A stretch of 64,000 bases of DNA from Polyangia bacterium (GTDB lineage: Bacteria > Myxococcota_A > Polyangia > Nannocystales > Nannocystaceae), in NCBI GenBank assembly GCA_030429545.1, contig JAUIFF010000003.1:186001-250000 (forward strand), in the 5' to 3' direction. A model generated the notes under the pieces. The model searched no databases. It saw only the letters and a program-made list of their open reading frames with translations, and was not told the origin of the DNA. Positions 3,355 to 63,911 of this stretch are shown here, in pieces; the stretch's first letter is position 1, and every line of letters starts with the position of its first letter. The position numbers and the translations under genes are program-made.

Positions 3355-4598
3355 TGCAGATGCAATCACCTCCCCGGCCAGTGCCCGCTGCTGCCCCCTG
3401 GGCCAGTGATTGGCTGACAACAGGGATCACTGGGACCAACGGCAAAACCTCGACCGCCACCATGCTCTCGGCGATTTTAACCGCCGCCGACAAGCCGGTT
3501 TTTACGGTCACAACCCTCGGCTTTTTTTTTCGCCAGCTGCCGATCCCAAGCTCGACCACTTGGAATGGGTTTATGGCTGCCGGCGAACAGGCCAGTGCCG
3601 ATGGCTGCCGTCACGGGGTCGTTGAGCTGACCAGCCAAGCACTCGCCCGCGGGCATGCCCAACGGTTTCGCTTTGACATTGGTGTATTTACAAACTTGTC
3701 GCGCGACCACCTCAACCTCCACGGCAGCCCCGAGGCCTACCTCGCGGCCAAGGCCCAGTTGTTTGTGTTTTTGGGGCCTGGGCAAACTGCGGTCCTCAAC
3801 GCCCGAGATCCCGCCGCCGACCTGCTCGACCGCGCCATTCCCAACGACGTCAAGCGCCTGTGGTACGGGGCGCCACACCGTGGTCCGGCACACCACCAAG
3901 AACAACTCGCCGCCCGGGCGATTGAGCTATCACCGACACGAACAACCGTTTTGTTGGAAGATTCGCCGCTCGCCCGTTGCCTAGATGGCAAGCTCGAGGT
4001 CCCGCTGATCGGCGAGGTGTTTGGCGAAAATGCTCTGGCAGCTGCACTCGCTGCATATGCAATGGAAATTGATCCCCTCGCTATCCGACGCGGCCTGGCA
4101 ACCACACCGGCGGTTCCCGGACGATTCGAAATTGTTGGCCAACACCCACTGGTAGCGATCGACTACGCCCACTGCCCACGGGCACTCCAACACACCTGCG
4201 GCACGGCCAGGGCGTTGTGCGGACCGGCCGGGCAAACGTGGATTGTGTTTGGTGCCGGAGGCGATACCGACCCGAGCAAGCGCGAGCCCATGGGCATGGC
4301 CGTGGGACAGGCGGCTGACCACGCGATCGTGACCAACGACAACCCGCGAAACGAAAACCCGCAAACCATTGCAGATACACTTAGCCGTGCCTGTCGCGAG
4401 GCCGGGTGCCGCCACGTCACCACCATCCTCGACCGCGCAGCCGCGATCGACCACGCACTCACCCACGCCGGGCCCAACGACGTTGTTGTGGTCGCCGGCA
4501 AGGGCCACGAGACCGGCCAAATCATTTCCGGCCAAATACTGCCGTTTAGCGACCGCGAGACCGTTCAGCAGTGGCTCGCACAGCACGCACCCGGGTGA
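3354..4598 (+). CDS. MurE-like Mur ligase lacking the N-terminal substrate domain
   Basis: A 414-residue ATP-dependent amide ligase of the Mur family. The P-loop GTNGKTST (K31) begins only about 27 residues from the N-terminus, whereas canonical MurE has about 90-110 residues (UDP-binding domain) before it. Other MurE-type signatures are present: the metal region NLSRDHLNLHG, the hinge IDYAHCP (usually DYAHTP), GAGGDTDPSKREPM, and TNDNPRNE, which matches the DNPR motif of meso-diaminopimelate-adding MurE. The C-terminal domain ends with VVAGKGHE. It may act on a non-standard acceptor or be a specialised paralogue. The GTG start overlaps the upstream stop, and codons 1-4 coincide with a perfect TGCAGATGCA palindrome (3355-3364). 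Confidence 0.85.
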   Translation: MQMQSPPRPVPAAAPWASDWLTTGITGTNGKTSTATMLSAILTAADKPVFTVTTLGFFFRQLPIPSSTTWNGFMAAGEQASADGCRHGVVELTSQALARGHAQRFRFDIGVFTNLSRDHLNLHGSPEAYLAAKAQLFVFLGPGQTAVLNARDPAADLLDRAIPNDVKRLWYGAPHRGPAHHQEQLAARAIELSPTRTTVLLEDSPLARCLDGKLEVPLIGEVFGENALAAALAAYAMEIDPLAIRRGLATTPAVPGRFEIVGQHPLVAIDYAHCPRALQHTCGTARALCGPAGQTWIVFGAGGDTDPSKREPMGMAVGQAADHAIVTNDNPRNENPQTIADTLSRACREAGCRHVTTILDRAAAIDHALTHAGPNDVVVVAGKGHETGQIISGQILPFSDRETVQQWLAQHAPG

Positions 4599-4607
4599 TC
4601 GCCCCCC

Positions 4608-5024
4608 CTACTTCAACTGACCACGAATCTTCTCGGCCATGTCCTGGCCATCGCTGTCGCCGAGTTTTTGCGCCGGCCAGCCAATCCCCAGCCCGGCCTC
4701 GGCCGAGGGTTTGGGAATGATGTGAAAATGGACATGAAACACTGCTTGATGGGCCGCAGCCCCGTTGTTTTGCAGGATGTTGTAGTCCGACACCCCAGTC
4801 GCTGCCATCACGGCACGGCACAGTCGCGGCAACACCCGACCAATCGCAGCACTTGCATCGTCACTGAGTTGGTCGAGCGTCGCCACAGCTTGCTTGGGAA
4901 TCACCAACGTGTGCCCGGGGCTCAGGGGAAAAATGTCGAGGAATGCCAGAACGTGCTCGTCTTCGTAGAGCCGGTGGCACGGCAGTTCGCCGCGAATGAT
5001 GCGTGAGAAAATCGTCTCTGACAT
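4608..5024 (-). CDS. HIT-family nucleotide phosphohydrolase/transferase
   Basis: The 138-residue protein is a complete HIT (histidine triad) domain. It shows the N-terminal SETIFSRIIRGELPCHRLYE typical of the Hint/YcfF branch, the central FPLSPGHTLVIPK, and the catalytic triad HVHFHIIP. Family members hydrolyse adenosine phosphoramidates or related nucleotides in the cytoplasm, forming an AMP-histidine intermediate. It converges on the Mur-ligase gene with only nine bases between stops. Confidence 0.9.
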   Translation of the reverse strand: MSETIFSRIIRGELPCHRLYEDEHVLAFLDIFPLSPGHTLVIPKQAVATLDQLSDDASAAIGRVLPRLCRAVMAATGVSDYNILQNNGAAAHQAVFHVHFHIIPKPSAEAGLGIGWPAQKLGDSDGQDMAEKIRGQLK

Positions 5025-5198
5025 GGCTGCGAGTATGCGCCGTAATCCGGCGAAAACTCAACCTCCGGGCTATCAAGGCCGCGACGTCGGTACCGCTGAC
5101 CGTGACAACCAGTAAAACATCGCCGCGGTTGGGCGTGACCTCCCTGGAGCCTTCGGGCAATGAATGTAACTACATCTTACCCCCGGCAGGTGGGTCCA

Positions 5199-5813: not shown

Positions 5814-5940
5814 GGTCTGGCCAGCATAGTCGAACATCGCCCGCGTGGATACGACCACGGATGTGACCTTGAGGTAACAATCTGCGACTGCAAAGCGCAG
5901 GGATTGGCGTTCTGGCCTTTAACATGTAGGATAACGTGCG

Positions 5941-6669
5941 ATGAAATCGCGCGGTGCATGGATTGTGCTGGGGTTGCTCAGCGGCTGTAGTTTTGACGGT
6001 TCGGGGGCCGGCTCAACCACTCAGAACACGTCGGCGAGCGACACGAGTGGCAACCCCTGTAGCGAGCTCGAGTGTCCGACCGACGGTCAGTGCGAGGTGC
6101 TCGATGGCCTGGCACAATGCATGTGCAACGATACCGATGTGCCCGACGGCGACACCTGCCCAGAAGACACGGGGAGCGCGACGGCTGTGAGTGGCAGCGA
6201 GACCGCGGGTACCGACACGGGTGATTCGACGACGGAGGACACCACCGCTGGAGTCACCGAGGGTATGACGTCTGGTTCGACTTCCGAATCGACCGACGCG
6301 ACTACCGACGCGACTACCGACGCGACTACCGATGCAACTACCGACGCGACTACCGACGCGACTACCGATGCAACTACCGATGCAACTAGCGACGCCACCA
6401 CTGAAGACCCGAACACGACCGACGACACCGGCGATTCGACCAGTACAACGGGACAGATGAAACTCCCCGACGGGGCTGACTGCGACAACGATGGCGAGTG
6501 TGAAAGCGACTACTGCTACGCCGAGAAAAACCCAAACTTCCCGGTTCCCACCAAACAGACCTGCCACGCGACCTGCATCGCGCCCAATGACCCACAGATG
6601 TGGTGCTACGAGCAAGACGACTGTTGCGACGGCTGGTGTAACCCGGTGACGGGCCGGTGCAACAACTGA
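5941..6669 (+). CDS. Lipoprotein with 12-bp coding repeats and Cys-rich ends
   Basis: The 242-residue product has a lipoprotein signal (IVLGLLSGC, Cys16). It then has a short Cys-rich EGF-like stretch, a long Thr/Asp/Ser linker that includes about eight DATT repeats (see the repeat at 6292-6402), and a C-terminal Cys-rich module (DGADCDNDGECESDYCY and later CCDGWCNPVTGRC). The pattern is typical of surface lipoproteins of Nannocystis-type myxobacteria; no enzymatic motif is visible and the role is unknown. The stop codon lies inside a tandem duplication that also covers the 3' end of the convergent DUF6940 gene. Confidence 0.75.
   Translation: MKSRGAWIVLGLLSGCSFDGSGAGSTTQNTSASDTSGNPCSELECPTDGQCEVLDGLAQCMCNDTDVPDGDTCPEDTGSATAVSGSETAGTDTGDSTTEDTTAGVTEGMTSGSTSESTDATTDATTDATTDATTDATTDATTDATTDATSDATTEDPNTTDDTGDSTSTTGQMKLPDGADCDNDGECESDYCYAEKNPNFPVPTKQTCHATCIAPNDPQMWCYEQDDCCDGWCNPVTGRCNN
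6292..6402 (+). repeat. 12-bp coding tandem repeat (DATT units)
   Basis: About nine units of GACGCGACTACC or close variants (some GATGCAACTACC) encode the DATT tract of the lipoprotein linker. The exact period and near identity make it prone to length change by slippage. The 12-base unit keeps the frame, so variation would alter linker length only. Confidence 0.85.
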
Positions 6670-7280: not shown

Positions 7281-7294
7281 GTATACACATCTAA

Positions 7295-8860: not shown

Positions 8861-9750
8861 CTGCCGCCTCGCGGTTCGAGGGGGGCAAACAGGGCATCAC
8901 TATCGGCCGGGTCGTCCGAACCTAGGGGCCCGGCAGTCTCTGCCCCGTCGTCACCACCGGTCGCCCCAGCGTCGGTCTCACCGGTCAGTCCGGCATCATC
9001 GGTTTCGGCCTCGCCGGGCAAACCTGTTGTATCTGCACCTGTTCCAGATTCGTCGCCATCGTTGTTGGTGACCGGCGCGGGTTGACTGAGTAGGTCGAGG
9101 GCCCGCTCACCACCGGCAATCGCAACGCTGGGGCCAGGGCGCTCGGGTATCTCGCTATAAAACACCCAAAACACCACGGCAAACACCGCGAGGGCCCCAC
9201 CGGCTTTGATCTGTTTGGACTCGACCTCCAAAAACCCTGAAAGCACGGTCGCGATGCAGGCGCCCCCGAGTGCCGCGAGCATGCCAAACACCAGCCATTG
9301 GTAGCGGTTGGGGTTGGGCAGCAGGACCGTAAACAAAATGACGATGAGCAACAGCGAGACCCCGACGATCAGTGTCACCCGGCCCTTGTGCTCGTGCTTC
9401 GCCGTTGGCTTGTCGGCCTGGGAGCTGTCCCCGGGTGCAGGCTCGGGTGTGGCCTCAGTCGCGGGTTTTTGTGGGGCTGGCTCAGCGACTTCTTCGGGCT
9501 TGGTCTTCGCTTCAACCTCGGGCTTGGCCTCCGCGGCAACCGGCTTGCCGTCGGGAGTCGGAGGAATCAGCTCCGAGTCCACCTGAATGCCCAGTCCGTC
9601 CGAAGGCAGGGCTTCTTCTAAGCTCTCGCCCGCGAGTCCGGCATCGGGTCGAGCTTCGACACCTATGAGCGAACCACTCACGGTAAACCGATCTGAGGGC
9701 AGCGGCGGCTCCTCGTCGTTTGCCGACGGGTGTGGAGGCTTGGCGCTCAC
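8857..9750 (-). CDS. Acidic/proline-rich membrane protein, function unknown
   Basis: A 297-residue protein with a low-complexity N-terminus rich in Pro, Glu and Lys (1-120). Three hydrophobic segments follow (about 125-142, 150-170 and 180-197). The acidic, Gly/Asp/Thr-rich C-terminal tail runs from about 215 to 297. No known domain is seen. It is the first gene of a two-gene unit with the TPR protein (four-base overlap) and is divergent from the vWA lipoprotein gene. The TGTATCTGCA palindrome at 9028 lies in its tail codons, in the usual phase (GCA GAT ACA on the coding strand). Confidence 0.7.
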   Translation of the reverse strand: MSAKPPHPSANDEEPPLPSDRFTVSGSLIGVEARPDAGLAGESLEEALPSDGLGIQVDSELIPPTPDGKPVAAEAKPEVEAKTKPEEVAEPAPQKPATEATPEPAPGDSSQADKPTAKHEHKGRVTLIVGVSLLLIVILFTVLLPNPNRYQWLVFGMLAALGGACIATVLSGFLEVESKQIKAGGALAVFAVVFWVFYSEIPERPGPSVAIAGGERALDLLSQPAPVTNNDGDESGTGADTTGLPGEAETDDAGLTGETDAGATGGDDGAETAGPLGSDDPADSDALFAPLEPRGGR

Positions 9751-9840
9751 CCGTCGATGTTACCCCAATGGTTGTGCGCTCACCGCCGATTTAGTGGAGA
9801 AGCGATGGGCAGCGTTGCATCCGAGCGATGCAACCCCGCG

Positions 9841-9932: not shown

Positions 9933-11894
9933 ATGAAGACTCCCATTCGCACCACCCTTACTGTGATGTCCCTTCTGTGCCTCCCGCTCGTCGGTTGTGC
10001 AGCCCCGAAACACGCGACCTACGCTCCCGAGTCGGTGAGCCTGGCTGGCGGTGCTGCCCCAGCCGATCCCGGTGCCAGCTACAACTACGCGGCCGACGAT
10101 GCCGGTGGCGACACTGCTGTCGACGCGACCTCGGTGGCCCAAGCAATGCCCATCGAAGCCGAGGCCGGCGAAATGGCTCCCCCCGCCCCCGCGGACGAGC
10201 CCGATGCCGAAGAAGCTCCGGCGATGGCCCCCGCCCGCGACTATGCGCCCCAGTCCGCGCCGGTAGCCGGAGTCGCCTCGAAAGTCGCCTCTCGCTCGTC
10301 TCGCCGGGCCGAACGCAAAGCCCGACGCGCGGCTAAAAAAGCCGCCAAACACAAAAGCGAAGCCGCCCCGTCCAAGCCGCTCACTGCATCTGCAACGACC
10401 ACTAGCCAGCAACCGATCCAAGCTCCGCCGCAGAACACCCGCAAGGACAACAGCAACGAGGGCTACGACCGGATCGCCGAGCAAAACTTTACAGCTGTCG
10501 CCCAAAAGCCGCTGTCGACCTTTTCGATTGATGTCGACACTGCCTCCTACAGCAATGTCCGTCGCTACCTCCAAAGCGGCAGCCTGCCCCCGGCCGACGC
10601 TGTCCGCATCGAGGAGATGGTCAACTATTTCTCATACAACTATCCCCAACCCCGCGGCAATCGTCCGTTCTCGGTGACCACCGAAGTCGCCGACTGTCCC
10701 TGGGACCAGAGCCATCGCCTTGTCCACATTGGCCTCAAGGGCAAGGAAATCGCCAAAAATGCCATCCCGCCGCGCAACCTCGTGTTCCTGCTCGACGTCT
10801 CGGGTTCGATGAACGCCCACGACAAACTCCCGCTGCTCAAGCAGGCCCTGGGGATGGTTGTCAAACAACTCGACAGCCGTGACCGCGTCTCGATTGTTGT
10901 CTATGCAGGTGCCTCGGGTGTGGTGCTCAAGCCGACCGCCGGCAACCTCCACAATCAAATCCTCGGCGCGCTCGACCGGCTCTCGGCCGGCGGCTCGACC
11001 AACGGCGGCCAGGGCATCAAGCTCGCCTACAAGCTGGCCCAAAAGTCGTTCGTCCGCGGCGGCATCAACCGCGTGATCTTGGCGACCGATGGCGACTTCA
11101 ATGTCGGCGTCACCTCGCGCGGCAGCCTGGAGCGCCTGATCGAACGCAAGCGGCGTAGCGGCGTGTTCCTCTCGGTCCTGGGCTTTGGCACCGGCAACCT
11201 CAAGGACTCGCAAATGGAAATGTTGGCCGACAAGGGCAATGGCAACTACGCCTACATCGACTCGACCCGCGAGGCCCACAAAGTCCTCGTCGACGAGCTC
11301 GGCTCAACCCTGGTCACCATCGCCAAGGATGTGAAGATCCAAGTTGAGTTCAACCCCAACATGGTCCAGTCCTACCGCCTGATCGGCTACGAAAACCGGG
11401 CCCTGGCCGACCGCGATTTCAACGACGATCGCAAAGACGCCGGCGAGATCGGTGCCGGCCACACGGTGACAGCCCTCTACGAAGTCGTGCCCCGGGGTGC
11501 CGGTGGGACCGGCGTCGACCCCCTGCGCTACCAACAGGAAGGTGATCATACACTGACCGCGGCTGCCAACTCGGGCGAGATGATGTACCTCAAGCTGCGC
11601 TACAAACAACCGCAGGGCAGCCGCAGCACGCTGGTGACCTACCCCATCCAAGAGTCCGACCACACGCTCTCGCAGAGCTCGCAAAACTTCCGGTTCTCGG
11701 CCGCCGTCGCCGGATTTGGCATGCTCCTGCGCAACTCGGAACACTCGGGCGAGACCAGCTTCTCGCAGATTCACGGCCTGGCCCAAAGTGCACTTGGGCG
11801 TGATACCAAGGGCTACCGCCGCGAGTTTTTGAACCTCGTGAAAAAAGCCGGTCACCTGCGCGGTGAGCAGCCGAGCGTGGCGATTGCCCGCTAG
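9933..11894 (+). CDS. YfbK-type von Willebrand factor A lipoprotein
   Basis: A 653-residue lipoprotein. The signal ends in CLPLVGC (Cys22). A low-complexity Ala/Pro and Arg/Lys-rich stretch follows, to about 170. Next are the N-terminal vWA-associated domain (STFSIDVDTASYSNVRRYL, MVNYFSY), the vWA domain with a full metal-binding site (DVSGSMN, GGSTNGG, ATDGDFN), and a C-terminal DUF3520-like domain (DVKIQVEFNP, LIGYENRAL). Homologues of YfbK are annotated as Ca-activated chloride channel-like, but most probably mediate divalent-metal-dependent protein contacts in the envelope. It is monocistronic, followed by a strong intrinsic terminator. Confidence 0.9.
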   Translation: MKTPIRTTLTVMSLLCLPLVGCAAPKHATYAPESVSLAGGAAPADPGASYNYAADDAGGDTAVDATSVAQAMPIEAEAGEMAPPAPADEPDAEEAPAMAPARDYAPQSAPVAGVASKVASRSSRRAERKARRAAKKAAKHKSEAAPSKPLTASATTTSQQPIQAPPQNTRKDNSNEGYDRIAEQNFTAVAQKPLSTFSIDVDTASYSNVRRYLQSGSLPPADAVRIEEMVNYFSYNYPQPRGNRPFSVTTEVADCPWDQSHRLVHIGLKGKEIAKNAIPPRNLVFLLDVSGSMNAHDKLPLLKQALGMVVKQLDSRDRVSIVVYAGASGVVLKPTAGNLHNQILGALDRLSAGGSTNGGQGIKLAYKLAQKSFVRGGINRVILATDGDFNVGVTSRGSLERLIERKRRSGVFLSVLGFGTGNLKDSQMEMLADKGNGNYAYIDSTREAHKVLVDELGSTLVTIAKDVKIQVEFNPNMVQSYRLIGYENRALADRDFNDDRKDAGEIGAGHTVTALYEVVPRGAGGTGVDPLRYQQEGDHTLTAAANSGEMMYLKLRYKQPQGSRSTLVTYPIQESDHTLSQSSQNFRFSAAVAGFGMLLRNSEHSGETSFSQIHGLAQSALGRDTKGYRREFLNLVKKAGHLRGEQPSVAIAR

Positions 11895-11916: not shown

Positions 11917-11942
11917 AAAGCCCGACTTCGGTCGGGCTTTTT
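11917..11942 (+). terminator. Intrinsic terminator of the vWA lipoprotein gene
   Basis: A ten-base stem, AAAGCCCGAC paired with GTCGGGCTTT, closed by a TTCG tetraloop and followed by further T residues, 22 bases after the stop codon. The recurrent palindrome copy TGTATGTGCA starts at its last base (11942). Confidence 0.9.
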
Positions 11943-11959
11943 GTATGTGCATCATCAAT

Positions 11960-19600: not shown

Positions 19601-19829
19601 GCTACTGCAATCCGCGACGATTTACTCCACAGGTGGAGGTGTCCCCCCTCGGGGGCCGTGGCACCCAGCCTGGGCAGTCATCGGTATTTCGCTAGGCTTC
19701 GCTGGCAAACCGAGTTTTGGTGGCAGCAAAGTGTGCGGAAATACAAGTATCCCGGCCAACTCGAATTTCGTGTGCATTTGCAATCCAAGCGCACAAATCA
19801 GACAGGCTGTCGTGTAGCATGACGCCGTC

Positions 19830-26602: not shown

Positions 26603-26633
26603 GTGCGGCGCCAACTCCATGCAGATACAAAAA

Positions 26634-29356: not shown

Positions 29357-29478
29357 CAAGGGCGCACTCGCGTCCGTTACGAGGGGGGTTACACACGTAA
29401 CTCCCCTTTGTACATACATGCTCATCGACGGCAGACAAGGCAGTGGACGGACCCCCGGCTGCGTGGCACCCTCCACCG

Positions 29479-32418: not shown

Positions 32419-32446
32419 CGAATCCTGTTGCACCTGCAACAATTGC

Positions 32447-41800: not shown

Positions 41801-42115
41801 ACTTCGCAGAGGTTTCGCAGCCGACAAGTCCTGAGCGGTGTTCATACACAACCGAGTCGGTTGACCACCGCAGCCGTGGCCCTCGCCATCGGCCTGTTGC
41901 TACGCCGCTCAACTTCCTGGGAACTCTTCGGGCGACAACTCCTGCTCGGTGCACATACACAGACGAGTCGGTTACCACCGCAGCCGTGGCCATCGCCGCC
42001 GGATGGGGAGCATCTCGGGCGATAGGTTCTGAGCGGTACTCACACACAGACGAGTTGATGGACGACAGCGACCGGGGGCATATCGGCTACAAGTCCTGAT
42101 TGGTGCTGATACACA
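41755..42115. repeat. Tandem array at a convergent junction (about 108-bp unit, 3-4 copies)
   Basis: Units start near 41755, 41865, 41973 and 42058. Each contains a copy of the 3' end of the plus-strand coiled-coil gene (for example GGCCTGTTGCTACGCCGCT) and of the 3' end of the minus-strand lipoprotein gene (CATACACAGACGA, encoding RLCxxT on the other strand). The plus gene ends in the first unit, and the minus gene ends in the last one. The third unit is shorter (about 85 bases). Each unit contains one match or near match of the TGYANNTRCA palindrome (41839, 41950, about 42038 and 42104). Confidence 0.75.
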
Positions 42116-51412: not shown

Positions 51413-51459
51413 ACCGGTTGGTCACCTTGCTTGCTTGCGTGGGGGCATCTCATGTCTAG
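51409..51459 (+). CDS. Possible 16-codon coupling ORF
   Basis: GTG at 51409 overlaps the upstream TGA (GTGA). It reads 16 codons (MNRLVTLLACVGASHV) to a TAG at 51457-51459, past the ATG 51452 of the next gene. A ribosome that reads it would stop close to that ATG, so it could couple translation. The peptide looks like the start of a lipoprotein signal, so it might be a relic. Confidence is low. Confidence 0.3.
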   Translation: MNRLVTLLACVGASHV

Positions 51460-53503
51460 CCCAGGACCCTTGCTGCAACTTCGCCAGCCGCAATCGCTCG
51501 GTCGCCGACGCAGTGTGCAAGCGGCCGAGCAAACCAGCGATGTCACGCGATTTACCGGCGTGCTGGCGGCGACGCTGGTCGGGGTTTTGACCCTGGCTAT
51601 CGGCGTGTGGGCAAGTCCAGAGCTCGTCGTCTCGAGCCAGCGGTCGGTGTCGCTTCCCCATCACCAGGCGGGCCTGAGCTGCCAGTCCTGCCACACCGAC
51701 GACCAACCGCGCAGCGCTGGTGTTGCAGATACAACTTGCTTGGGGTGTCACCCCGGCCAGGTGTCGACCCGGTCGGCACACCGCGAGCTCAGCACGAACG
51801 GCCAACTGGGTTGTACGACCTGTCACAAAAGTCATACATCCGAGGCGGGCTTTGTTTTTTCGACAACTGGCGAGGTCACTCGCTACACCCTCGATACCCC
51901 GTCGCCGCCACTGGCTGCCGGGCTCGCGCTACCTGCCCGCGTTACGCTGCCGTTGGTTGCGAGCGAGCACTGCGGTACATGCCACAACCTCCAAAGCCCA
52001 ACCGACCCGGTCGCCCGCTGCATCCCCGCCGGTGGCGAAGTGAGCCAGTGTTTCGACGAGCACCACACACCCCAGCAAGTCGCACCCCATCGCTTCGCCG
52101 CCGCCGAACTAGGCCGCTCGCTGCTCCAGCGAGGCCTGCTCGCGGCCCCCGAGCAAAGTCAACCCGACCATCCAACATCCCCTGCCTGGCTTGTGTTTTT
52201 GCTCGCCTGCATGACTTCTGGCCTCACGCTTGTCGGCGTTCGACAACTGCGTCGCCGCAGCTCAACCACTGCCACGCCGACCGCCGGACCCCAGCTGCGT
52301 GCCCCGGAGGTCCGCCGGCTTCCGCAAATAGATGTCAATACATGTTTAGGCTGTAACGCCTGTGTCGACGCCTGCCCGTACGATGTGCTCGAAGTCCGTC
52401 AGTACACGGCCCGCGTGGTCCGGCCCGATGACTGCTGTGGGCTCACGCTGTGTGAGCAGCGCTGCCCCAACGGCTCGCTCAAAATCACCGAGGGCGAGCC
52501 TGTAACCGATTTGCCGCGGCTCGACGACAACCTCCAATCACGCGACACCCCCGGGATCTATCTCGCCGGGGACCTCACCGGGTTGCCACTTATCCGCAAC
52601 GCGATAAACCAGGGAGCCCACGCCGTTCGATGTATGGCCAAGGACCTTGGCAAGCGCACACCGGACGATCCCGAACTCGACGTCGTGATTGTGGGTGCGG
52701 GACCGGCCGGAATCAGTGCCGCGCTCGCGGCCAAGGAGCTCGGGCTGCGCTACACGGTGCTCGAGCAAAGTAGCGTTGCCGCCAGTATTCGTTCGTTTCC
52801 CCGCGGTAAACTCGTGTTTGACCAGCCCCTCGGCATGCCGCTGCTGGGCGACCTTTGGCTGCGCGAAAGCACCAAGGAGGAGCTGCTGGCAAAATGGTTG
52901 CAAATTGTCCATCGGGAAAACTTGCAGATTCAAGAGTCTACCCGGGTCACCGGGGCACAACGGGCCGCCAACGGGTTTGTCCTGTCGACCACAAACCCAA
53001 CGGGTGGTGCGCAGGAAGTCCACGCCCGGCGGGTGGTGTTGGCGTTTGGCCGCCGCGGGACCCCACGCAAGCTCGATGTCCCGATCAACCCGCAGTTTGC
53101 CAACCATGTCCACTACTCACTTGCCGATGCACATAGTTTTCAGGGCAAGCGGCTACTTGTTGTTGGCCTTGGCGATGTCGCCATGGAAGCTGCGATTGCC
53201 CTGGCCCACCAACCCGGCACCGAGGTGACCGTGGCCTACCGCGGCGACGGGTTTCGCCGGGGCAAGCAACGCAACATCGACGAGGTCAAGCGACTGCAAA
53301 GCCGCGGACGGGTCGACCTTCGCCTGCAAACCGTGGTCGCCAAGATCGAGGCCACCACCGTTGTCCTCAGGCACAACAACGCCGAGTCGCGCGAGCCGTT
53401 CGACGCGGTGTTTGTCATGATCGGTAACCTCCCGCCCTGGCCCCTGATGGAATCGATGGGGGTCAAGCGGGTCAAGGCTGTCGCCCAACTGCACGCGCCA
53501 TAA
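51452..53503 (+). CDS. Tetraheme-ferredoxin-flavoprotein oxidoreductase
   Basis: A 683-residue protein. A membrane segment (about 35-53) is followed by a periplasmic part with four CXXCH sites (CQSCH 77, CLGCH 96, CTTCH 121, CGTCH 174). A second membrane segment (about 245-263) returns the chain to the cytoplasm. Next come a 2x4Fe-4S ferredoxin-like domain (CLGCNACVDACPYD, then CCGLTLCEQRCPNG, 298-341) and a pyridine-nucleotide/FAD oxidoreductase: GAGPAG 415-420, PRGKLVFDQP, and a second Rossmann VVGLGDVAMEAA. The usual C-terminal FAD motif (IYLAGDLTGLPLIRNAINQG) sits before GAGPAG (369-388), as in a circular permutation. GGGGG precedes the ATG. Confidence 0.9.
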   Translation: MSSPGPLLQLRQPQSLGRRRSVQAAEQTSDVTRFTGVLAATLVGVLTLAIGVWASPELVVSSQRSVSLPHHQAGLSCQSCHTDDQPRSAGVADTTCLGCHPGQVSTRSAHRELSTNGQLGCTTCHKSHTSEAGFVFSTTGEVTRYTLDTPSPPLAAGLALPARVTLPLVASEHCGTCHNLQSPTDPVARCIPAGGEVSQCFDEHHTPQQVAPHRFAAAELGRSLLQRGLLAAPEQSQPDHPTSPAWLVFLLACMTSGLTLVGVRQLRRRSSTTATPTAGPQLRAPEVRRLPQIDVNTCLGCNACVDACPYDVLEVRQYTARVVRPDDCCGLTLCEQRCPNGSLKITEGEPVTDLPRLDDNLQSRDTPGIYLAGDLTGLPLIRNAINQGAHAVRCMAKDLGKRTPDDPELDVVIVGAGPAGISAALAAKELGLRYTVLEQSSVAASIRSFPRGKLVFDQPLGMPLLGDLWLRESTKEELLAKWLQIVHRENLQIQESTRVTGAQRAANGFVLSTTNPTGGAQEVHARRVVLAFGRRGTPRKLDVPINPQFANHVHYSLADAHSFQGKRLLVVGLGDVAMEAAIALAHQPGTEVTVAYRGDGFRRGKQRNIDEVKRLQSRGRVDLRLQTVVAKIEATTVVLRHNNAESREPFDAVFVMIGNLPPWPLMESMGVKRVKAVAQLHAP

Positions 53504-54467: not shown

Positions 54468-55637
54468 CTAACCGGCCTGTTCGAGCAGTTGCTGCAACAC
54501 CCTATCGATCGCGGCCTTATCTGGCTTTTTGGGCAACTTCGAGGCCGAAAGCGCGGTGCCCATCTCGGCTTCAAGGCGCTCGGCCTCAACGATGAGTTGC
54601 TCGTAGGAGTAGGCCCCATCGCGGATGGCCGAGAGTTCGGCCGCATCGGGTCGACGCACCCGCAAGACCCCCTCGCGCAGGACTTCAAGGCCCGTCCGCA
54701 TCAGGCGAATCAGGTGCATGCCGTGCTTGGTGTCGTAGCCGTGTTGCGCTTCAAGGGCCGCGCGCTTGGGATTGCGCTCGCGTTCCCAGCGTTTGAATTG
54801 GTCCCACTGCTTGCGCGCCGACCGGTAGCGTCGCTCCTGGCGAAGCGCCGCGAGGACATCCTTGCTCAGGCCAATCGATGTAGCTGCAAGCTCATAGACC
54901 CGTTCGTCGAGCACTTCGGGCTGGCAACTCAGGGTTGTCGCCCAAAACTCGCGCATGTTGTCGCGCAGCACGTCACGCTCCGCCCCCTGCATTTCCATGT
55001 CCTCAACTCCCCAGCTGCGGATGATCTTTGTGATCGCTTCGTCGATCCGGTTGCGGTCATCGGCGCTGAGTACCGTCGACTCAGGCAACCCAAACTCCGC
55101 CCGTGTCGGCGCGGCCGTGGGTGGGTTGAGCAACCACGCGCGATGACCCTTGATCCGTTTGAGTTGGCTGTTGGCATAGCCCAGGTATGTAAATTTGACC
55201 TTCTGCGTCAAAAATAGCTCTCGATGCGCGCGCAGCTGTTCCCACAACGGCGAGGCAAACAACACATCGTCGGGGTGTAAAAACAGCAACTCCAACATGT
55301 TGGGGTTGGCGTTGGCACAGAGGTTGACGAGCTTGCTGAGGTCGTAGATCACCAGGTCGAGCTCATCGGCACCGGTCTTGGCAGCAATCGGCCCGGCGGT
55401 TTCATGCTTATGCATATTTTCCATGGCAGTGCGCCAGTTCGGTCCCCCCGGAGGGGCCTTGCCCATCGCCTGAAACTGCTCAAAGTTGCGATAAAACGAG
55501 AGCCGAACGGCAAGTGGTGCGATGCAACAGCCGCGAATATCAATATCTGAGGTCGCCCGCGCAGTCCCGTAGGCATGGGACCCCGTCACCGCCAACATAA
55601 TCGTGCGTCTATCCAGGTCAAAATCCATGGCCGGCAT
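54468..55637 (-). CDS. DNA polymerase-beta-superfamily nucleotidyltransferase
   Basis: A 389-residue protein of the YcgL-like (COG3541) nucleotidyltransferase group. The active site is GSHAYGTARATSDIDIRG (Gly-Ser and the first Asp pair), and the carboxylate-bearing LDLVIYDL is consistent with the third catalytic Asp. The long helical C-terminal part (about 200-389) is typical of the group. Members are predicted to add a nucleotide to RNA or another acceptor and some occur beside RNA-repair genes. No such gene is adjacent here. ATG 55628 is an alternative start. Confidence 0.85.
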   Translation of the reverse strand: MPAMDFDLDRRTIMLAVTGSHAYGTARATSDIDIRGCCIAPLAVRLSFYRNFEQFQAMGKAPPGGPNWRTAMENMHKHETAGPIAAKTGADELDLVIYDLSKLVNLCANANPNMLELLFLHPDDVLFASPLWEQLRAHRELFLTQKVKFTYLGYANSQLKRIKGHRAWLLNPPTAAPTRAEFGLPESTVLSADDRNRIDEAITKIIRSWGVEDMEMQGAERDVLRDNMREFWATTLSCQPEVLDERVYELAATSIGLSKDVLAALRQERRYRSARKQWDQFKRWERERNPKRAALEAQHGYDTKHGMHLIRLMRTGLEVLREGVLRVRRPDAAELSAIRDGAYSYEQLIVEAERLEAEMGTALSASKLPKKPDKAAIDRVLQQLLEQAG

Positions 55638-55825
55638 CCTACCGACTTTTACCCGAGAAACAAACTGTCAGTTTCGGGCCGGCCTCGGGCCGCTAAAGAA
55701 TCTCGCAAGCTGGTGGATCTCGGCAATACAGATGGTTTTGTGCACGTGCAAACCTCCCTCGGGCCGATGCGAGTTGACACAAAATTGATTGTCCAATATC
55801 GAGAGGAACGGGCGAAAGGAGTGCC

Positions 55826-58639
55826 ATGACAGTCAAGCCGACACGACGGGGTCTTCTCAAGGGAACGCTCGGTGGAACCCTGACAGCAGCGTTGACCGGG
55901 TGCCGTAGTGAGCAGGCGCGTGGCGAGCTCAGCCAACTCACAGCTCCCGGCGAGAAAATTGTAGATGCAATCCCCGTCGATGTGACAGTCAACCGCACCG
56001 CAACACAGATCGCAGCCGGCCCAGACACCACCGCGCTCGAAGCCGTACGCAACCAACTCGGTCTCACCGGGACCAAGCTCGCCTGCGGACACGGGGCCTG
56101 TGGGGCCTGCACGATTCAAGTCGACGGCAAGCCGGTGGCGAGCTGCCTGTTGCCCGCAACATCACTGCACCGGCGCCGCGTGACCACAGTCGAAGGCTTG
56201 GCGACCGATCTTCGGGGCCTTCACCCGGTGCAGCGAGCGTTTATCGGCGAAGACGCGATGCAGTGTGGCTACTGCACGCCGGGCTTTGTCGTTGAGGCGG
56301 CTGCGTTTTTTGACGCTTGGCGAGCCGAACACGGCAAACAACCACCGAGCCGTGAGGTCATTGCAGATGCACTTTCTGGGCATCTTTGTCGGTGTGGTGC
56401 CTATACACAAATTTACGCCGCTATCGCCAGGGCGTGCGAGGGCGCCTACGACAATGCCGGCGAGCGTGGTCCGCGGTACGACGCCCGCGAAAAGGTTACC
56501 GGGCAGGCCAAGTACACGGTTGATGTCCAGCTCCCCAACATGGTCTATGGAGCGATCGGTCGGGCCCACGTCGCCCATGCCACAATTCGTCGGATCGACT
56601 GGTCGCGCGCACTCAAACACCCGGGCGTTTACGCGGCTGTCGACCTGACCATGGGCGTGCGAACGATTCGCTTCGCCGGCCAGGAACTTGTGGCGATTGC
56701 TGCCGAGAGCGAGGCCATTGCCCGGCATGCGCTCACCCTGGTCGACTACGATTTAGATGTATACACACCGATTATCGGAATTGAGGCGGGGCGGACAGCA
56801 AAAGACCACGTTTACACCAGCCGGGCGACCCGCAAGCAGGCTCCAAATGCCAACGAAGCGCCGTTGCTGCCCCTCAAGTGGAGAGGCAACCTGCGCGGCC
56901 CGTTTCAGCTGTTCTCCAAAAGTCGAGGCAAAGCGCGGCGTGCCGTAACCGAAGCCAAAGACTCCGGCGATGCAAAACGCCTGGCAGGAGGGCAGTTTTC
57001 GACGCAGACACAGTGCCACAGCACGCTCGAGCCCCACGCCTGTGTCGCCGATTGGCGTGACGATTTGTTGGTTGTACATCTATCAACCCAGGGTGTGCAC
57101 CAGGCCGCCGAGGATATCGCCAAACGCTTTGACCTGCCTGCGGAGCGGGTGCAGGTCCTGGCACAACACGTCGGCGGCGGTTTTGGTGGCAAGGCGGTGC
57201 TGAGCCTCGAACTCGTGGCGGCTGTCGAACTTTCGCGCCAACTCGGGCGACCTGTTCGGGTTGTGCTCGATCGCCACGAAGAACTGGCCACCGGAGGCAA
57301 CCGTCCGGCCCAGGAAATTGACCTCGCGCTCGCGGCTGACACGGAGGGCAAATTCACGGGTGTTCAGGTCAAGTCGTTTGCCGATGCCGGCGTCGCGGTT
57401 GGCTCGGCACCGAGCATTTTGTTTCGCATCATGTATGCCAAAACGCCCAAGAAGCTCGAGGATTGGGATGTGGTGACCCATGCGGCGCCCGGCAAACCAC
57501 TGCGGGCTCCCGGCGGGCCGCCGGCATTTTGGGCACTCGAGCAGGCGGTCGACGAACTTGCACATGCACGGAGTGAAGATCCCATCGCCCTGCGCCGCCG
57601 CAACGACCCCAACCCAGCGCGCAAGGAACTGTATACCTGGGCCGAATCCCTGCCACTGTGGCGCGACCGGGCAACATCGATAGCTGCCGATAGTGGTCGC
57701 TACCGCCGTGGCGTGGGCCTTGCTGTCGGTGGGTGGTTCTACTTTGTCCAACCCAGCGCACGCGTACAGGTCGACACAACCCCCGGAGGTTTTGTTGTCT
57801 CGACGGCGTGCCAGGACATCGGCAACGGCTCAAAATCCGTGCTGGCCCAGGCGGTCGCCAATGTCTTTGGTATCGACCCGGGCATGGTCGCCATCCGGGT
57901 TGGCGACTCCAAACTCGTCCCCGGGCCAATGTCGGCCGGGAGTCGAACCGCCACGACCATCGGCCCGGCCGCCACGCAGGCTGCCGAAAATCTGCGCGAA
58001 GAGTTGCTCGAAATCGCCGAGGCCCAGCTCGGGTACCGCGGAGCCCAGGCGATCCCCGGGGGGCTGCGCCACAGCGCCGGCGAAACCTCGTGGGGCGAAG
58101 TACTTGCACGTGCACCGAGATTGACGACAATCGGCCGGCGCAAGCGCGACCGCAAGGGCTATGTGTTTGGCATAGGAGGGTTAGCAGCCGGGCGGTATGT
58201 CTCGGGTTCGTTGCAGGTGAGCGAAGTCGAGGTCGATACTCGGCTCGGCACGGTACGCGTGTTGCAATCGCAGGTCGGACTCGGGGTCGGCAAAATCTTC
58301 ACGCCGGTGCTCGCCCGCAGCCAGGCAACGGGAGGCGTGATTCAAGGTATCAGCTACGCACTCTATGAGGAACGCCGCCTCGATCCAAACACCGGAGCTG
58401 TGCTCACCGGCAACCTCGAAGACTACCGCATTGCCGGGCTCGGGGATGTGGGAACCATTGATATACATTTTATGCAAAAGGGCTTTGAGAACGTGACCGG
58501 CGGCGGTGTTGGCCTGGCGGAACTCGTCAAACTCGCACCGGCGGCTGCGCTCGGCAACGCGGTATTTCACGCCACCGGGTACCGCCCTCGCCACTTGCCC
58601 CTGCGCCCCGACCGGGTGCTGAAAGGATTGCGCACATGA
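55826..58639 (+). CDS. Xanthine-dehydrogenase-type Mo hydroxylase, fused 2Fe-2S and Mo-binding subunits
   Basis: A 937-residue protein. The N-terminus has a twin-Arg signal (RRGLLKG) and a lipobox-like ALTGC (Cys26), so it is a likely Tat lipoprotein. The 2Fe-2S domains are fused in front: C87/92/95/107 and C147/150/188/190. The Mo-binding part (about 215-937) shows TQCHSTLEPHACVADW and QHVGGGFGGK. Where the family has the catalytic Glu in GVGE, this sequence has GVGLAEL (about 893-899). The enzyme may oxidise an aromatic or aldehyde compound in the periplasm. ATG 55826 has AGGAG upstream. The next gene overlaps it by four bases. Confidence 0.88.
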   Translation: MTVKPTRRGLLKGTLGGTLTAALTGCRSEQARGELSQLTAPGEKIVDAIPVDVTVNRTATQIAAGPDTTALEAVRNQLGLTGTKLACGHGACGACTIQVDGKPVASCLLPATSLHRRRVTTVEGLATDLRGLHPVQRAFIGEDAMQCGYCTPGFVVEAAAFFDAWRAEHGKQPPSREVIADALSGHLCRCGAYTQIYAAIARACEGAYDNAGERGPRYDAREKVTGQAKYTVDVQLPNMVYGAIGRAHVAHATIRRIDWSRALKHPGVYAAVDLTMGVRTIRFAGQELVAIAAESEAIARHALTLVDYDLDVYTPIIGIEAGRTAKDHVYTSRATRKQAPNANEAPLLPLKWRGNLRGPFQLFSKSRGKARRAVTEAKDSGDAKRLAGGQFSTQTQCHSTLEPHACVADWRDDLLVVHLSTQGVHQAAEDIAKRFDLPAERVQVLAQHVGGGFGGKAVLSLELVAAVELSRQLGRPVRVVLDRHEELATGGNRPAQEIDLALAADTEGKFTGVQVKSFADAGVAVGSAPSILFRIMYAKTPKKLEDWDVVTHAAPGKPLRAPGGPPAFWALEQAVDELAHARSEDPIALRRRNDPNPARKELYTWAESLPLWRDRATSIAADSGRYRRGVGLAVGGWFYFVQPSARVQVDTTPGGFVVSTACQDIGNGSKSVLAQAVANVFGIDPGMVAIRVGDSKLVPGPMSAGSRTATTIGPAATQAAENLREELLEIAEAQLGYRGAQAIPGGLRHSAGETSWGEVLARAPRLTTIGRRKRDRKGYVFGIGGLAAGRYVSGSLQVSEVEVDTRLGTVRVLQSQVGLGVGKIFTPVLARSQATGGVIQGISYALYEERRLDPNTGAVLTGNLEDYRIAGLGDVGTIDIHFMQKGFENVTGGGVGLAELVKLAPAAALGNAVFHATGYRPRHLPLRPDRVLKGLRT

Positions 58640-59607: not shown

Positions 59608-59825
59608 AACTCTGCAAAATGTTACGGTGGAAGGGGTTTAGCCGCGACGCGGCCGAACTCGACGCCTTTGAATTTGTATTTGCACGTAATCAGGTGCAGT
59701 ACTCCTGCCTGCGAACCTGCCAGCCCTGGGGTACCGACGGCGAGCTCGCAGCCCCCGAATGCTGCAACGACGCGCGAACTTGTTTTGAGCCGTCGAGACT
59801 GGTACGGCCACCCAAACTGAGTTAG
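59604..59825 (+). CDS. Small Cys-rich protein of the Mo hydroxylase operon
   Basis: A 73-residue protein with Cys at 4, 35, 39, 53, 54 and 60 (YSCLRTC, PECCNDARTC). No signal or membrane segment is seen. The GTG start overlaps the FAD subunit stop by four bases, so it is part of the operon. The cysteines could hold a small Fe-S cluster or another metal. No family is known to me. The palindrome copy TGTATTTGCA (59675) lies in codons 24-27. Confidence 0.65.
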   Translation: MKLCKMLRWKGFSRDAAELDAFEFVFARNQVQYSCLRTCQPWGTDGELAAPECCNDARTCFEPSRLVRPPKLS

Positions 59826-59972: not shown

Positions 59973-62060
59973 CTAGTTGTCGAGGGGACTTGTGGTCGTG
60001 GTCGTGGCCGGGTCGTCGACCGCGGGCGTTGCTTGGCTCGGGTCTTTTTTCGCGTTTTTCTTGTCCCCTGGCAGGCGAATCGGCCCAGCACTCGGAATCC
60101 GCACACTGCCGACGTCGGGTCGACCCGAGCGGGTAGGACGTTTTTTGGGGCGCTTTTTGGGACGCTTTTTCTTGCGCGCCTCAGCCCGTTTACGCCGACG
60201 CTCAGCCGCTGCTTTTTGGGCTGCTTCGGCCGCCGCAAAGTGGTCGGCCGCCTCGACACCAAGACCCGGAGGCAGCAACTTCACAGGCTTGTTGCGTTTG
60301 GGATGCCCCGGCGGATAGATGACCTCGTATAGCCGCCACGTCGAGTGCCACGAGCGAAACCCGGCGACCTGGCCAATCTCGATCAACTGGTCCTCGCTCC
60401 AGTTTTTGGTGTTGCGCTTGATGTACGTGGTGTTGGTCCGCCAGCCGACGACGTAGTCGATGTTCTCGCTGCGGATGTACTCCATGTTGCGGCCAGCCAT
60501 GATCTCGGTTATCGCCTCTGAGTTGACGACGCCGTCTAGGTTGACGTAGTGCACGTTGCGCGCGTAGTAGGCCAGCGCACCGGTTTGGCTCGAGCCAACA
60601 ACTGTCCCCCGCGGGAAGTAGGCGTCGGCCCAGATCCCCAGGTTGCGATAACCCGTGTCCACGCTCGCCGGCCAGAACATCATGATCTGAAATCGCCGCG
60701 AGGCAAAGCAGACAAACCCGAGGTAAACGGCAACGGCAATGTACAGCACCGGGCGGGAAAGCAGGCGAAACCGCGTGCGATAGTTGTCTGCCCACGCAAC
60801 CAAACAGCCGAGCGCGACCGCTGAGATCGCGATCATGGCCGGGTTGACGACGTAGAGGTAGCGTTTAAAAAACCACGGCGCAAAGATGTAGCATGTATAT
60901 GCAAAGTACAGGCAGATGCCGTGAATCACCGGGAGCGCCAACCACCGCAGGGGGGTCTCCTGCAGGGTTTGATAGGCCTTCCACGTGCGTAGCTGCTTAA
61001 ACTTGCGCGAGACAAGCCACAGCCCGAGGGCGATCAGCACGAAGATGCCGACGATGTACAGGAGATGGGCCGAGTTGCTGCGGATAGCCTTGTAGCCAAC
61101 GCGAAACTTCGAGATGTAAAATGCGGTCGTGATATTGAAGTTGGCGTTGGTCAGGCTGATCCAACGCACCGCTTTGCCGCTGATCGGAAACCACTCGCCG
61201 GTGTAGTAAAGCGAGTAAAAAAACCAAGGTGCATACCCGGCGACCGTGCCAACAAGCAGGGCGAGGTTTCGCAAAAACCATGCTTTAACCGGCGAGGCCA
61301 GCCCCTGGCCCTGCGCCCGAGCTCGCCACACAAGCGTGGCGAGAGCCCACAGCGAAGCCAGGGCAAAAAACACGCCGAGGACAAGGACGTCGATGCGAGC
61401 CATCCCGCCAATACCCACGACGAGCCCGAGGACGACAAAATGGCGGGCTTTGGTCGAGGTGAACGAACGTGTCAAGGACAGTCGCCAGGCGATCAACAAA
61501 AACAAAATTGCCAGGCTTGTCTCGAGGCCGTTGGTCGCCGCCCGCAGCGTGGCCGGATGCATCGCCCACATCAGCCCGGCGATCGCGGCCGTGACTTCGC
61601 CGACCCACGGCTCACGATGCTTGCGAAATGCCAGCCGGACAATGTGCATGATGAGCAGCACGCTCAACAGGTCAAACAACACACAAAAGCCCAACGCGAC
61701 CTTCACCATGGCGTCGAGGGTGTCGACCTGGGTCAGCGCGTCCGCATCTAAAAATGCAAATACACTGGATGTGCACCACACAAACAGCGGCTGAAACCCG
61801 TTGGTGTAGCGGTCGATGAACACCGGACCATTGCCCTGGCCGATTTGCTTGGCGATCTCGAGCGAGATATAGGTGTCGTCGGGAATGGTGCGCCCGTCGA
61901 GTGCCGGGAGCGGGCGCATCATCAACCACAGGCGCAGGGCGATTGCCACCAGCATCACCCCGAATACCAACCATTTGTATATACTTCGAGTTGGTGGCTT
62001 GGCGTCGCTAGCGGGGGCGAGTGAACTCGCAGCTGCGTCGGGCTGTGGCGGGGTTTGCAT
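59973..62060 (-). CDS. Membrane glycosyltransferase-like protein with basic tail
   Basis: A 695-residue membrane protein with about ten helices. After a short N-terminus (MQTPPQPDAAASS) comes the first helix, then an acidic periplasmic loop (DGRTIPDDTYISLEIAKQIG), the layout of GT-C/ArnT-type transferases that use lipid-linked sugars. A soluble periplasmic domain (about 500-600) follows. The C-terminal 90 residues are extremely basic (RRRKRAEARKKKRPKKRPKK) and then Pro/Thr-rich. The sugar and acceptor are unknown. ATG 62060 is preferred to an upstream extension. Confidence 0.82.
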   Translation of the reverse strand: MQTPPQPDAAASSLAPASDAKPPTRSIYKWLVFGVMLVAIALRLWLMMRPLPALDGRTIPDDTYISLEIAKQIGQGNGPVFIDRYTNGFQPLFVWCTSSVFAFLDADALTQVDTLDAMVKVALGFCVLFDLLSVLLIMHIVRLAFRKHREPWVGEVTAAIAGLMWAMHPATLRAATNGLETSLAILFLLIAWRLSLTRSFTSTKARHFVVLGLVVGIGGMARIDVLVLGVFFALASLWALATLVWRARAQGQGLASPVKAWFLRNLALLVGTVAGYAPWFFYSLYYTGEWFPISGKAVRWISLTNANFNITTAFYISKFRVGYKAIRSNSAHLLYIVGIFVLIALGLWLVSRKFKQLRTWKAYQTLQETPLRWLALPVIHGICLYFAYTCYIFAPWFFKRYLYVVNPAMIAISAVALGCLVAWADNYRTRFRLLSRPVLYIAVAVYLGFVCFASRRFQIMMFWPASVDTGYRNLGIWADAYFPRGTVVGSSQTGALAYYARNVHYVNLDGVVNSEAITEIMAGRNMEYIRSENIDYVVGWRTNTTYIKRNTKNWSEDQLIEIGQVAGFRSWHSTWRLYEVIYPPGHPKRNKPVKLLPPGLGVEAADHFAAAEAAQKAAAERRRKRAEARKKKRPKKRPKKRPTRSGRPDVGSVRIPSAGPIRLPGDKKNAKKDPSQATPAVDDPATTTTTSPLDN

Positions 62061-62296
62061 GCAAATGTCGGGCGCGGGCGAGCGGCACACCGTAGCCAGT
62101 GTTTGCCCGGCTTGGCAACTGCCTGAGCGCAGGTCAGGCACCTCACAGGGCGGTCTTTGGCAAACCGACATTGCGAGCCGGCACACATTCCCCGGCCGCC
62201 CTGCCCCGACCACCCGGCGAGATGCGAGAAACACCACGATCTTTGACCAGAGTCGCAGGCTCGCGCATCCATGCGCGAAGCGGTAAACCCCACCCG

Positions 62297-62656
62297 ATGG
62301 CCGACGAAATCGTCATTTTCCACAACCCGCGATGCAGCAAGTCGCGCGAGACCCTCAAGCTCCTGCGCGACCGCGGAATCGAGCCAACGGTGGTTCGCTA
62401 CCTCGACAACCCGCCCGACGCGAAGGCGATTCGTGCGTTGCTCGGCAAACTCCAGATCGAGGCCCACGCGCTGATGCGCCGCAAGGAGAAACGCTACCGA
62501 GAGCTCGGACTCTCTCCCGAGAAGTCGGCCCGCGAACTCGTCGACGCGATGGCCGAAAATCCCTTCCTGATCGAGCGCCCGATTGTGGTGGTCGGCCAAC
62601 GGGCGGCGATCGGCCGGCCCCCCGAAGCCGTCTTAGAGATCCTACCCACGCGCTAG
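62297..62656 (+). CDS. arsC: Arsenate reductase (glutaredoxin type)
   Basis: A 119-residue ArsC/Spx-fold protein. It has the catalytic Cys in HNPRCSKSR, then RYLDNPP and the C-terminal IERPIVVVGQRAAIGRPPE with the conserved Arg residues. It reduces arsenate to arsenite with glutathione and glutaredoxin. No other arsenic genes are adjacent, so it may be a general YffB-like member. ATG 62297 gives the standard length. Confidence 0.9.
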   Translation: MADEIVIFHNPRCSKSRETLKLLRDRGIEPTVVRYLDNPPDAKAIRALLGKLQIEAHALMRRKEKRYRELGLSPEKSARELVDAMAENPFLIERPIVVVGQRAAIGRPPEAVLEILPTR

Positions 62657-62696
62657 GACAGCGCTCGCTCGCGGTCAGATATGGTAGTTTCCGCCT

Positions 62697-63911
62697 GTGT
62701 CTATCGGTGAAGTTGCGGTTTCCCAAGGTTTCCTAGGCGCCCAAAACTGGCGCCGCTCGTTCGCGGGATATGTGTTGATACATGGACTTGTCGTGGCCAC
62801 GGGTTGTAGCTCCGGGGCCGCAACTTCACGTGGCACCGACACCTCGATCACCACGGCAACCACCGCACCGACAACCACATCACCCAGCGAAACCGAGGGA
62901 ACGACCGAGGCGACCGTGGGTCCAACCGGTGACGGCAGCGACTCCGACAGCGGCGAGACGACCTCGACAACCGATCCGACAACTGGTTCGACCACGGTCA
63001 AATATGATGTAGGTGCACCGGATGCCGGCGACACCGAAGGCAACGCCTGCGAAGTCGCCGACCACACTGCCTGCGACCTCGAACCAGATGACCCGTTTCG
63101 AGCGATTGGGCTCAATTGCCCGGGCGAGGTAACCGTCGCCGGCTCGTGGCAAACCGATCCCGTCGGCATGGAAGTGATCGCCTCGTGGGGCGAGGGCACA
63201 ACCTACACGCCACGCGAAGGTTCGCATTTTTTGGTGCTGTCCTCCGGCGACTTGGGTGAACGCCTAGACGTCCCCGACAGCCCGGGCGATGCGGCCTTTC
63301 ACTGCAACTCGACACACATGCTCGACGGCATGGATACGAGCAAATTTCCGGCGCCCATTCAGGCCAAAGATGTCGGCGGCGACTGCCTGCAAAACCCCGC
63401 ACTCGTCGGTACCGGCGACTGCTCCAACACGATCGAGTCACAGTTTCAACAAAGCGGCTGGAAATACGACTACCAGGAGCTGCGGTTTTCAACCACGGTG
63501 CCGGAGGGGGCCTCGACACTGAGCTTTGATGTCGCCTTCTTGACCAAGGAATACCCTGTGTGGCTCGACATGCCTTTCAACGACATGTTCATCGCGTGGG
63601 TCGAGTCGAGCACATGGAGTGGAAATGTCTCATTCGACCAGAACGGTAAGGCCCTATCGCTCAACGCTGCCTTCCTCGAGTACTTCGACGAAAATGGTGA
63701 CCTCCCCCAATTTGCCGGCACGTGCATGCGCTATAGCGCGGGCACAGGTTGGCTGACGACGACGGTCGCTGTCGAGCCCGGGGACGACATCGAGGTTGTG
63801 TTTGCCGTGTTTGATCTCGACGACGCCAACTGGGACAGCTTTGTGTTTTTGGATAATGTCCGCTGGGGATGCGACGAGATCGACGAACCTGAGACCGAAC
63901 CTATCGGGTGA
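62697..63911 (+). CDS. Choice-of-anchor-L lipoprotein
   Basis: A 404-residue lipoprotein. A hydrophobic segment ending VVATGC (Cys37) follows a longer n-region. The linker is Ser/Thr/Glu-rich to about 100. The C-terminal domain (about 255-395; VAFLTKEYPVWLDMPFNDMF, VFAVFDLDDANWDSFVFLDNVRWGC) is of the choice-of-anchor-L type, found in many secreted proteins, with Cys-rich parts before it. The role is unknown, probably surface binding. The start is GTG 62697. The palindrome copy TGTAGGTGCA lies at 63008. Confidence 0.8.
   Translation: MSIGEVAVSQGFLGAQNWRRSFAGYVLIHGLVVATGCSSGAATSRGTDTSITTATTAPTTTSPSETEGTTEATVGPTGDGSDSDSGETTSTTDPTTGSTTVKYDVGAPDAGDTEGNACEVADHTACDLEPDDPFRAIGLNCPGEVTVAGSWQTDPVGMEVIASWGEGTTYTPREGSHFLVLSSGDLGERLDVPDSPGDAAFHCNSTHMLDGMDTSKFPAPIQAKDVGGDCLQNPALVGTGDCSNTIESQFQQSGWKYDYQELRFSTTVPEGASTLSFDVAFLTKEYPVWLDMPFNDMFIAWVESSTWSGNVSFDQNGKALSLNAAFLEYFDENGDLPQFAGTCMRYSAGTGWLTTTVAVEPGDDIEVVFAVFDLDDANWDSFVFLDNVRWGCDEIDEPETEPIG

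Follow-up and report, generated by a model that had tools for sequence, protein, structure and literature searches.

TGYANNTRCA, a degenerate palindrome iterated thousands of times in the genome of one sampled species of the Nannocystaceae

To our knowledge, only a handful of bacterial groups have genomes in which a short word is highly iterated, and the function of the cyanobacterial example, highly iterated palindrome 1 (HIP1), is still debated. Here we describe the degenerate palindrome TGYANNTRCA, which recurs throughout a window of 64,000 nucleotides (contig JAUIFF010000003.1, positions 186,001 to 250,000; part of contig C6 in our numbering) from a Polyangia bacterium of the family Nannocystaceae, whose genome (G000) comprises 8.6 Mb in 39 contigs. 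In keeping with this family, a protein of the window has its nearest named homologues in Nannocystis and Plesiocystis. There are two kinds of described system with which such a word can be compared. HIP1 has the sequence GCGATCGC, and alternate HIPs are rich in guanine and cytosine (GC), at 75-100% (Elhai 2015, PMC4390886). The uptake signal sequences (USS) of the Pasteurellaceae are present in thousands of copies at about one per kb, prefer non-coding DNA while retaining many coding copies, originate by point mutation, and have a strong consensus with AT tracts at a distance of one helical turn (PMC1626085).

A sequence-only reading of the window had put the exact copies at about 45, with about two expected by chance, and both figures held. 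Exactly 45 matches lie between positions 3355 and 63017, whereas 100 dinucleotide shuffles gave 2.3 on average and never more than 7; the GC content of the window is 62.1%, slightly lower than the 63-64% that had been estimated. Counts across the whole 8.6-Mb genome gave 4915 copies (0.57 per kb), compared to 412 for a reversed-pattern control, a 12-fold excess. We read 2.3 Mb closely (27% of the genome, of which 1.9 Mb is genic according to a codon-usage script), and found 972 genic copies, roughly ten times the approximately 94 that remained after within-gene synonymous codon shuffling (maximum 105 in 20 shuffles). Intergenic DNA, analyzed over 1.12 Mb, held 128 copies where an order-2 Markov model predicted 8.5, so that coding and intergenic sequence, in both of which the initial reading had noted copies, are enriched. 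The over-representation is real and spans the whole genome. As a palindrome over-represented throughout the genome at a density near one per kb, TGYANNTRCA behaves as a HIP does, and the comparison with HIP1 that had been drawn from the window alone is upheld. The target of an active restriction enzyme would be expected to be avoided in the host genome, and this word is instead 12-fold over-represented. One reading frame, xxT-GYA-NNT-RCA, accounts for 758 sites, compared to 12 in the codon shuffles (about 60-fold), and 5.2% of the 14,605 slots with permissive amino acids are occupied. Together with the codon shuffles, this frame pattern shows that the sites exploit synonymous freedom.

The enrichment is confined to one sampled genome and species. 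All 28 other genomes of the family that we examined were at or below background, including the single genus-mate (G001), which has 387 copies and 609 copies of the control. In a sample of 379 Myxococcota genomes, the highest count outside G000 was 579, and no other genome was comparably enriched. Thus the counts against Markov and codon-shuffle models and in relatives, which had been proposed as a check, placed G000 far above expectation well beyond the window and its relatives at background. The genus-mate is distant, with conserved DNA matches that are 66-77% identical. Ten window sites could be aligned to it, and in each case the alignment was ungapped, the motif was absent, and the two genomes differed by substitutions only; for example, CGCGGCGGCG in G001 corresponds to TGCAGATGCA in G000. 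Because these ten alignments contain no gaps, we conclude that copies arise by point substitution. We also considered, and rejected, the possibility that a small mobile repeat had inserted, given the lack of gaps at these sites and a frame pattern that tracks synonymous freedom. In 60-100 kb from each of five relatives, a search for other iterated palindromes found none with a comparable fold enrichment, although its power was limited because its null model left intergenic DNA unshuffled. Separately, the GC content of G000 is 62% and that of G001 is 72% (100 kb of G001 read), which, with the DNA identity given above, is a very wide gap for members of one genus.

Site density was broadly similar across the contigs that we read. 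The gaps between sites are near exponential in length, apart from slightly too few at 60-250 bp and too many long deserts, which bring the coefficient of variation to 1.19. Compositionally atypical DNA has 0.37 sites per kb, while the density elsewhere is about 0.6. The sites peak 0-60 nt past stop codons, where their density is 1.6 per kb if the flanking genes are co-directional and 2.6 per kb if they are convergent, compared to approximately 0.5 per kb within genes, and this is the same combination of a non-coding preference with many coding copies that characterizes USS and the DNA uptake sequences (DUS) of the Neisseriaceae. Observed-to-expected ratios (O/E) are 31-35 in 3' zones and 8-10 in 5' and divergent zones. 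Operators would be concentrated upstream of genes, but it is in divergent and 5' zones that intergenic sites are sparsest. The distribution is that of a broadly uniform force across the genome, with avoidance near promoters. Two long stretches of native composition stand out as free of sites: the 28 kb at C4:56997-85466 (loci L099-L101), where none of 206 permissive slots is filled and about 11 would be expected, and the 17 kb at C1:55483-72919, which has no site at all. Both may have been acquired recently from a sister lineage that lacks the motif.

The full motif is a symmetric pattern of about 34 bp, cnncRAAWWAnD-TGYANNTRCA-HnTWWTTYgnng, and is therefore longer than the 10-base core. Within the core, the consensus is sharp. 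Exact sites are 12-fold enriched relative to codon-shuffled genes, while sites with a single mismatch range from 0.4- to 2.5-fold; the one-step variants that had been noted in the window do exist, but their enrichment in genes is mild, at about 1.6-fold overall and no more than 2.5-fold at the inner A/T position. The two Y/R positions, one in each half-site, vary independently of each other. We analyzed the flanks of 1232 sites, with a correction for amino acid and codon usage, and found a symmetric preference for A/T at 7.5 to 11.5 bp from the dyad that peaks at 10.5 bp (z = 19), an absence of C at 5.5 bp, and C at 13.5 and 16.5 bp, with no clear signal past about ±20 bp. The flank signal is alike in intergenic DNA and does not depend on gene strand. 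From this geometry we infer a dimeric protein reader that would contact TG/CA in the major groove on each side of the dyad, and that would exploit the flexible pyrimidine-purine steps to bend the DNA, which would bring the minor groove one turn further out to face the protein. A footprint of about 34 bp is wider than the target of a methylase or a restriction enzyme.

With these features in hand, the relationship to described systems can be stated more precisely. TGYANNTRCA resembles HIP1 and the alternate HIPs in being a short palindrome with about one copy per 1-2 kb in genic and intergenic DNA, in differing between close relatives, and in having palindromic extensions. It differs from them in being non-cyanobacterial, degenerate, and interrupted (YR, NN), in having AT-tract flanks that are symmetric to ±17 bp, in having no methylase of known matching specificity, and in not being GC-rich, as the specified positions of the core are 25-50% GC and the flanks are AT-rich. 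With USS and DUS it shares thousands of copies at close to one per kb, a sharp consensus, an origin by point mutation, and clade-specific versions (PMC1626085, PMC1939737), as well as many genic copies in spite of the non-coding preference; the AT-rich segments one helical turn away are shared with USS only. Unlike these signals, it is palindromic, its spacing is not clearly regular, and it belongs to one sampled species in the Myxococcota. We therefore class TGYANNTRCA as HIP-like or uptake-signal-like in behavior but as a member of neither class, because the GC-richness of the former and the non-palindromic form of the latter both fail. The initial reading knew of no described TGYANNTRCA family, and in agreement with this we found no bacterial description of the word or its main expansions in the 5.39 million open papers searched, closed journals being outside the scope of the search.

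Our preferred reading, to which we assign a probability of about 0.36, is that the palindrome forms the core of a ~34-bp site for a species-peculiar dimeric DNA-bending reader and is maintained by a drive of the uptake or self-DNA type. Copies are created by point substitution and would be retained by a roughly uniform per-copy drive, with a scaled strength, if the enrichment is at equilibrium, of about ln(30-75) = 3.4-4.3, as estimated from O/E. Sites would then build up where the sequence can change, namely at synonymous positions and in the 60 nt past stop codons, and would stay scarce in promoter zones. The most likely source of the drive would be preferential capture and recombination of word-bearing DNA, in a palindromic analogue of the Pasteurellaceae USS. 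A force this strong, still unsaturated over about 4900 sites, resembles drive more than it does selection on a structural element, and the lower number of copies in compositionally foreign DNA also supports this reading. There are several points that weigh against this. Known uptake signals are non-palindromic, while the motif and its flanks are two-fold symmetric, and, according to PMC1626085, such signals were known only from the Pasteurellaceae and Neisseriaceae. Promoter avoidance fits a protein bound inside the cell more naturally, the gaps are near random apart from the mild 60-250 bp deficit while USS and DUS are described as somewhat more regular, and no gene has been pinpointed as the reader of the palindrome. 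It is tempting to go further and regard the motif as a third, independent kind of self-recognition signal, in which a palindromic uptake or recombination tag of ~34 bp, recognized by a dimeric bending reader in a single myxobacterial lineage, would have come to fill about 5% of permissive coding slots through molecular drive, but we consider this less likely than not. In any case, a clean single-species example with an extended motif, a codon-level null, and motif-free relatives would allow a methylation ratchet, uptake drive, and chromosome organization to be separated, and it shows that substitution by itself can spread several thousand sites across a genome.

The initial reading had suggested a nucleoid-associated protein, a methylase, or a role in DNA uptake or segregation; uptake or self-recognition and a nucleoid protein remain in contention, while a bare methylase site, like a regulon, is disfavored by the ~34-bp footprint with its AT tracts, the promoter avoidance, the post-stop peak, and the restriction to one species. 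We lean narrowly towards uptake or self-recognition drive over these others as a matter of judgement rather than demonstration. A nucleoid-associated protein is possible, if somewhat unlikely in our view: an abundant, lineage-specific, dimeric DNA-bending protein with a Fis- or CRP-like architecture would organize the chromosome through thousands of sites, and those near promoters would be purged for interfering with transcription initiation. Bent DNA complexes of the CRP and Fis type have AT tracts about 10.5 bp either side of the dyad, and the palindrome shares with such sites the dimer-like two-fold symmetry, a major-groove core with pyrimidine-purine steps, and AT tracts at about ±10.5 bp, one helical turn out. 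The comparable density on most contigs read and the gap in O/E between divergent or 5' zones (8-10) and 3' zones (31-35) are in keeping with this idea as well. However, the TG at ±3.5-4.5 does not match the consensus of CRP or of Fis, and we know of no site of a nucleoid protein, or of the CRP or Fis type, with a genome-wide enrichment of 10- to 75-fold. A scaled advantage of about 4 at each of some 4900 sites, still unsaturated, is also hard to reconcile with a structural function, and the consensus is sharper than that of usual intracellular binding sites, a point that has been made for USS (PMC1626085). Regulon sites of a transcription factor, or roadblock or terminator elements at gene 3' ends, would account for the peak 0-60 nt after stops, but we consider both highly improbable. 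The majority of copies lie within genes, and a regulon was rejected on location, as promoter zones are poor in sites and 3' zones rich. Rho-independent terminators were likewise rejected, as the core is unable to fold into a stable hairpin and the sites share no neighboring hairpin or run of T. The single preferred frame might raise the suspicion that the excess reflects codon usage, base composition, or assembly error, but this can be set aside almost entirely: codon shuffles, Markov models, and intergenic counts speak against it, the reversed pattern and the genomes of relatives stayed at background, and the symmetric flanks are independent of gene strand.

Alternatively, the target of an orphan DNA methyltransferase could consist of or include the palindrome, with methylation-dependent repair or reading favoring the creation and retention of sites. 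Elhai (PMC4390886) put forward such a methylation-linked ratchet for cyanobacterial HIP1 and the alternate HIPs, and reports that each genome with a HIP encodes a methylase predicted to recognize part of it. Sharp recognition with Y/R degeneracy is typical of methylases. We scanned the genome with the profiles PF01555, PF02384, PF00145, and PF02086. PF01555 gave five hits, including a protein at C34:157187 that is conserved in the family and whose search also recovered the C4 and C28 matches; another hit was the C14 enzyme described below, and the C23 hit was weak. PF02384 gave weak hits only, PF02086 gave one hit, as in relatives, and PF00145 had no hit in the genome. One solitary beta-class methyltransferase of native codon usage, at C14:116916-117953 (locus L090:16916-17953, minus strand), is lineage-specific, with no homologue below 1e-25 in the 378 other genomes of the phylum, and has two TGYANNTRCA sites inside its gene. 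Its best homologues, at 57-61% identity, are plasmid methylases of Klebsiella and Acinetobacter that adjoin NotI-family endonucleases, and no NotI-type partner was seen nearby or in the 27% of the genome read, making it an orphan in that DNA. NotI, the founding member of its family, cuts GCGGCCGC, and since the homologues adjoin such endonucleases, the target of the C14 enzyme may be unrelated to the palindrome. A dependence on flanks ±7.5 to ±11.5 bp from the dyad also exceeds the width of a methylase target; the extensions of HIP1 are only 1-3 nt. We consider a methylase-linked HIP an unlikely explanation.

The 45 copies of the window are all exact matches, with strand given as (.). The first eight are TGCAGATGCA at 3355-3364, TGTATTTACA at 3683-3692, TGCATATGCA at 4052-4061, TGCAGATACA at 4370-4379, TGTAACTACA at 5165-5174, TGCATGTGCA at 6118-6127, TGTATCTGCA at 9028-9037, and TGCATCTGCA at 10385-10394, followed by the intergenic TGTATGTGCA at 11942-11951, about 50 nt past the stop of 9933-11894. 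Next come TGTAGCTGCA (13872-13881), TGCAAGTACA (14297-14306), TGTAAATGCA (15083-15092), TGCATGTACA (15401-15410), TGCATTTGCA (19773-19782), TGCACATACA (25834-25843), and TGCAGGTACA (26071-26080). Two copies occupy intervals between convergent genes, TGCAGATACA at 26620-26629 and TGCACCTGCA at 32429-32438, the latter adjoining a hairpin terminator, with TGTACATACA (29409-29418) and TGCACGTGCA (30438-30447) lying between them. Further along are TGCATATACA (34759-34768), TGTAGGTGCA (36092-36101), TGTACTTGCA (36200-36209), TGTAGATGCA (37761-37770), TGCATCTACA (39276-39285), TGCACATACA (41950-41959), TGCAATTACA (42984-42993), TGTACATGCA (44827-44836), and TGTATATACA (45122-45131). Ungapped alignments to a motif-free G001 sequence are available for TGCATTTACA (46610-46619), TGCAGATGCA (47933-47942), TGCACGTACA (49132-49141), TGCACATGCA (57559-57568), and TGCACGTGCA (58105-58114). 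At 49665-49674, TGCAGCTACA is aligned with TCCAGCTGCA in G001; the TGCATGTGCA copy at 50245-50254, within a CxxC ferredoxin motif, reads CAACTGCGCC there, TGTAGCTGCA at 54879-54888 reads GGCGGCGGCG, and TGCAGATGCA at 56362-56371 reads CGCGGCGGCG, the last three ungapped. The remaining copies are TGCAGATACA (51724-51733), TGCACGTGCA (55741-55750), TGTAGATGCA (55960-55969), the intergenic TGTATTTGCA about 70 nt past a stop codon (59675-59684), TGTATATGCA (60894-60903), TGCAAATACA (61755-61764), and TGTAGGTGCA (63008-63017).

There are two further observations from the regions that we read. Other six-base palindromes are depleted in 1.12 Mb of the genome, namely TCGCGA (O/E 0.44), TTCGAA (0.52), and CGTACG (0.55), which are possible traces of restriction. 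Within the window, positions 46017-53503 (+) hold three adjacent open reading frames, encoding a kinase-domain protein, a cyclic-nucleotide-binding-like protein that also has a 4Fe-4S domain, and a third that combines tetrahaem-cytochrome-, ferredoxin-, and FAD-reductase-like parts, in what looks like an unusual electron-transfer cluster.

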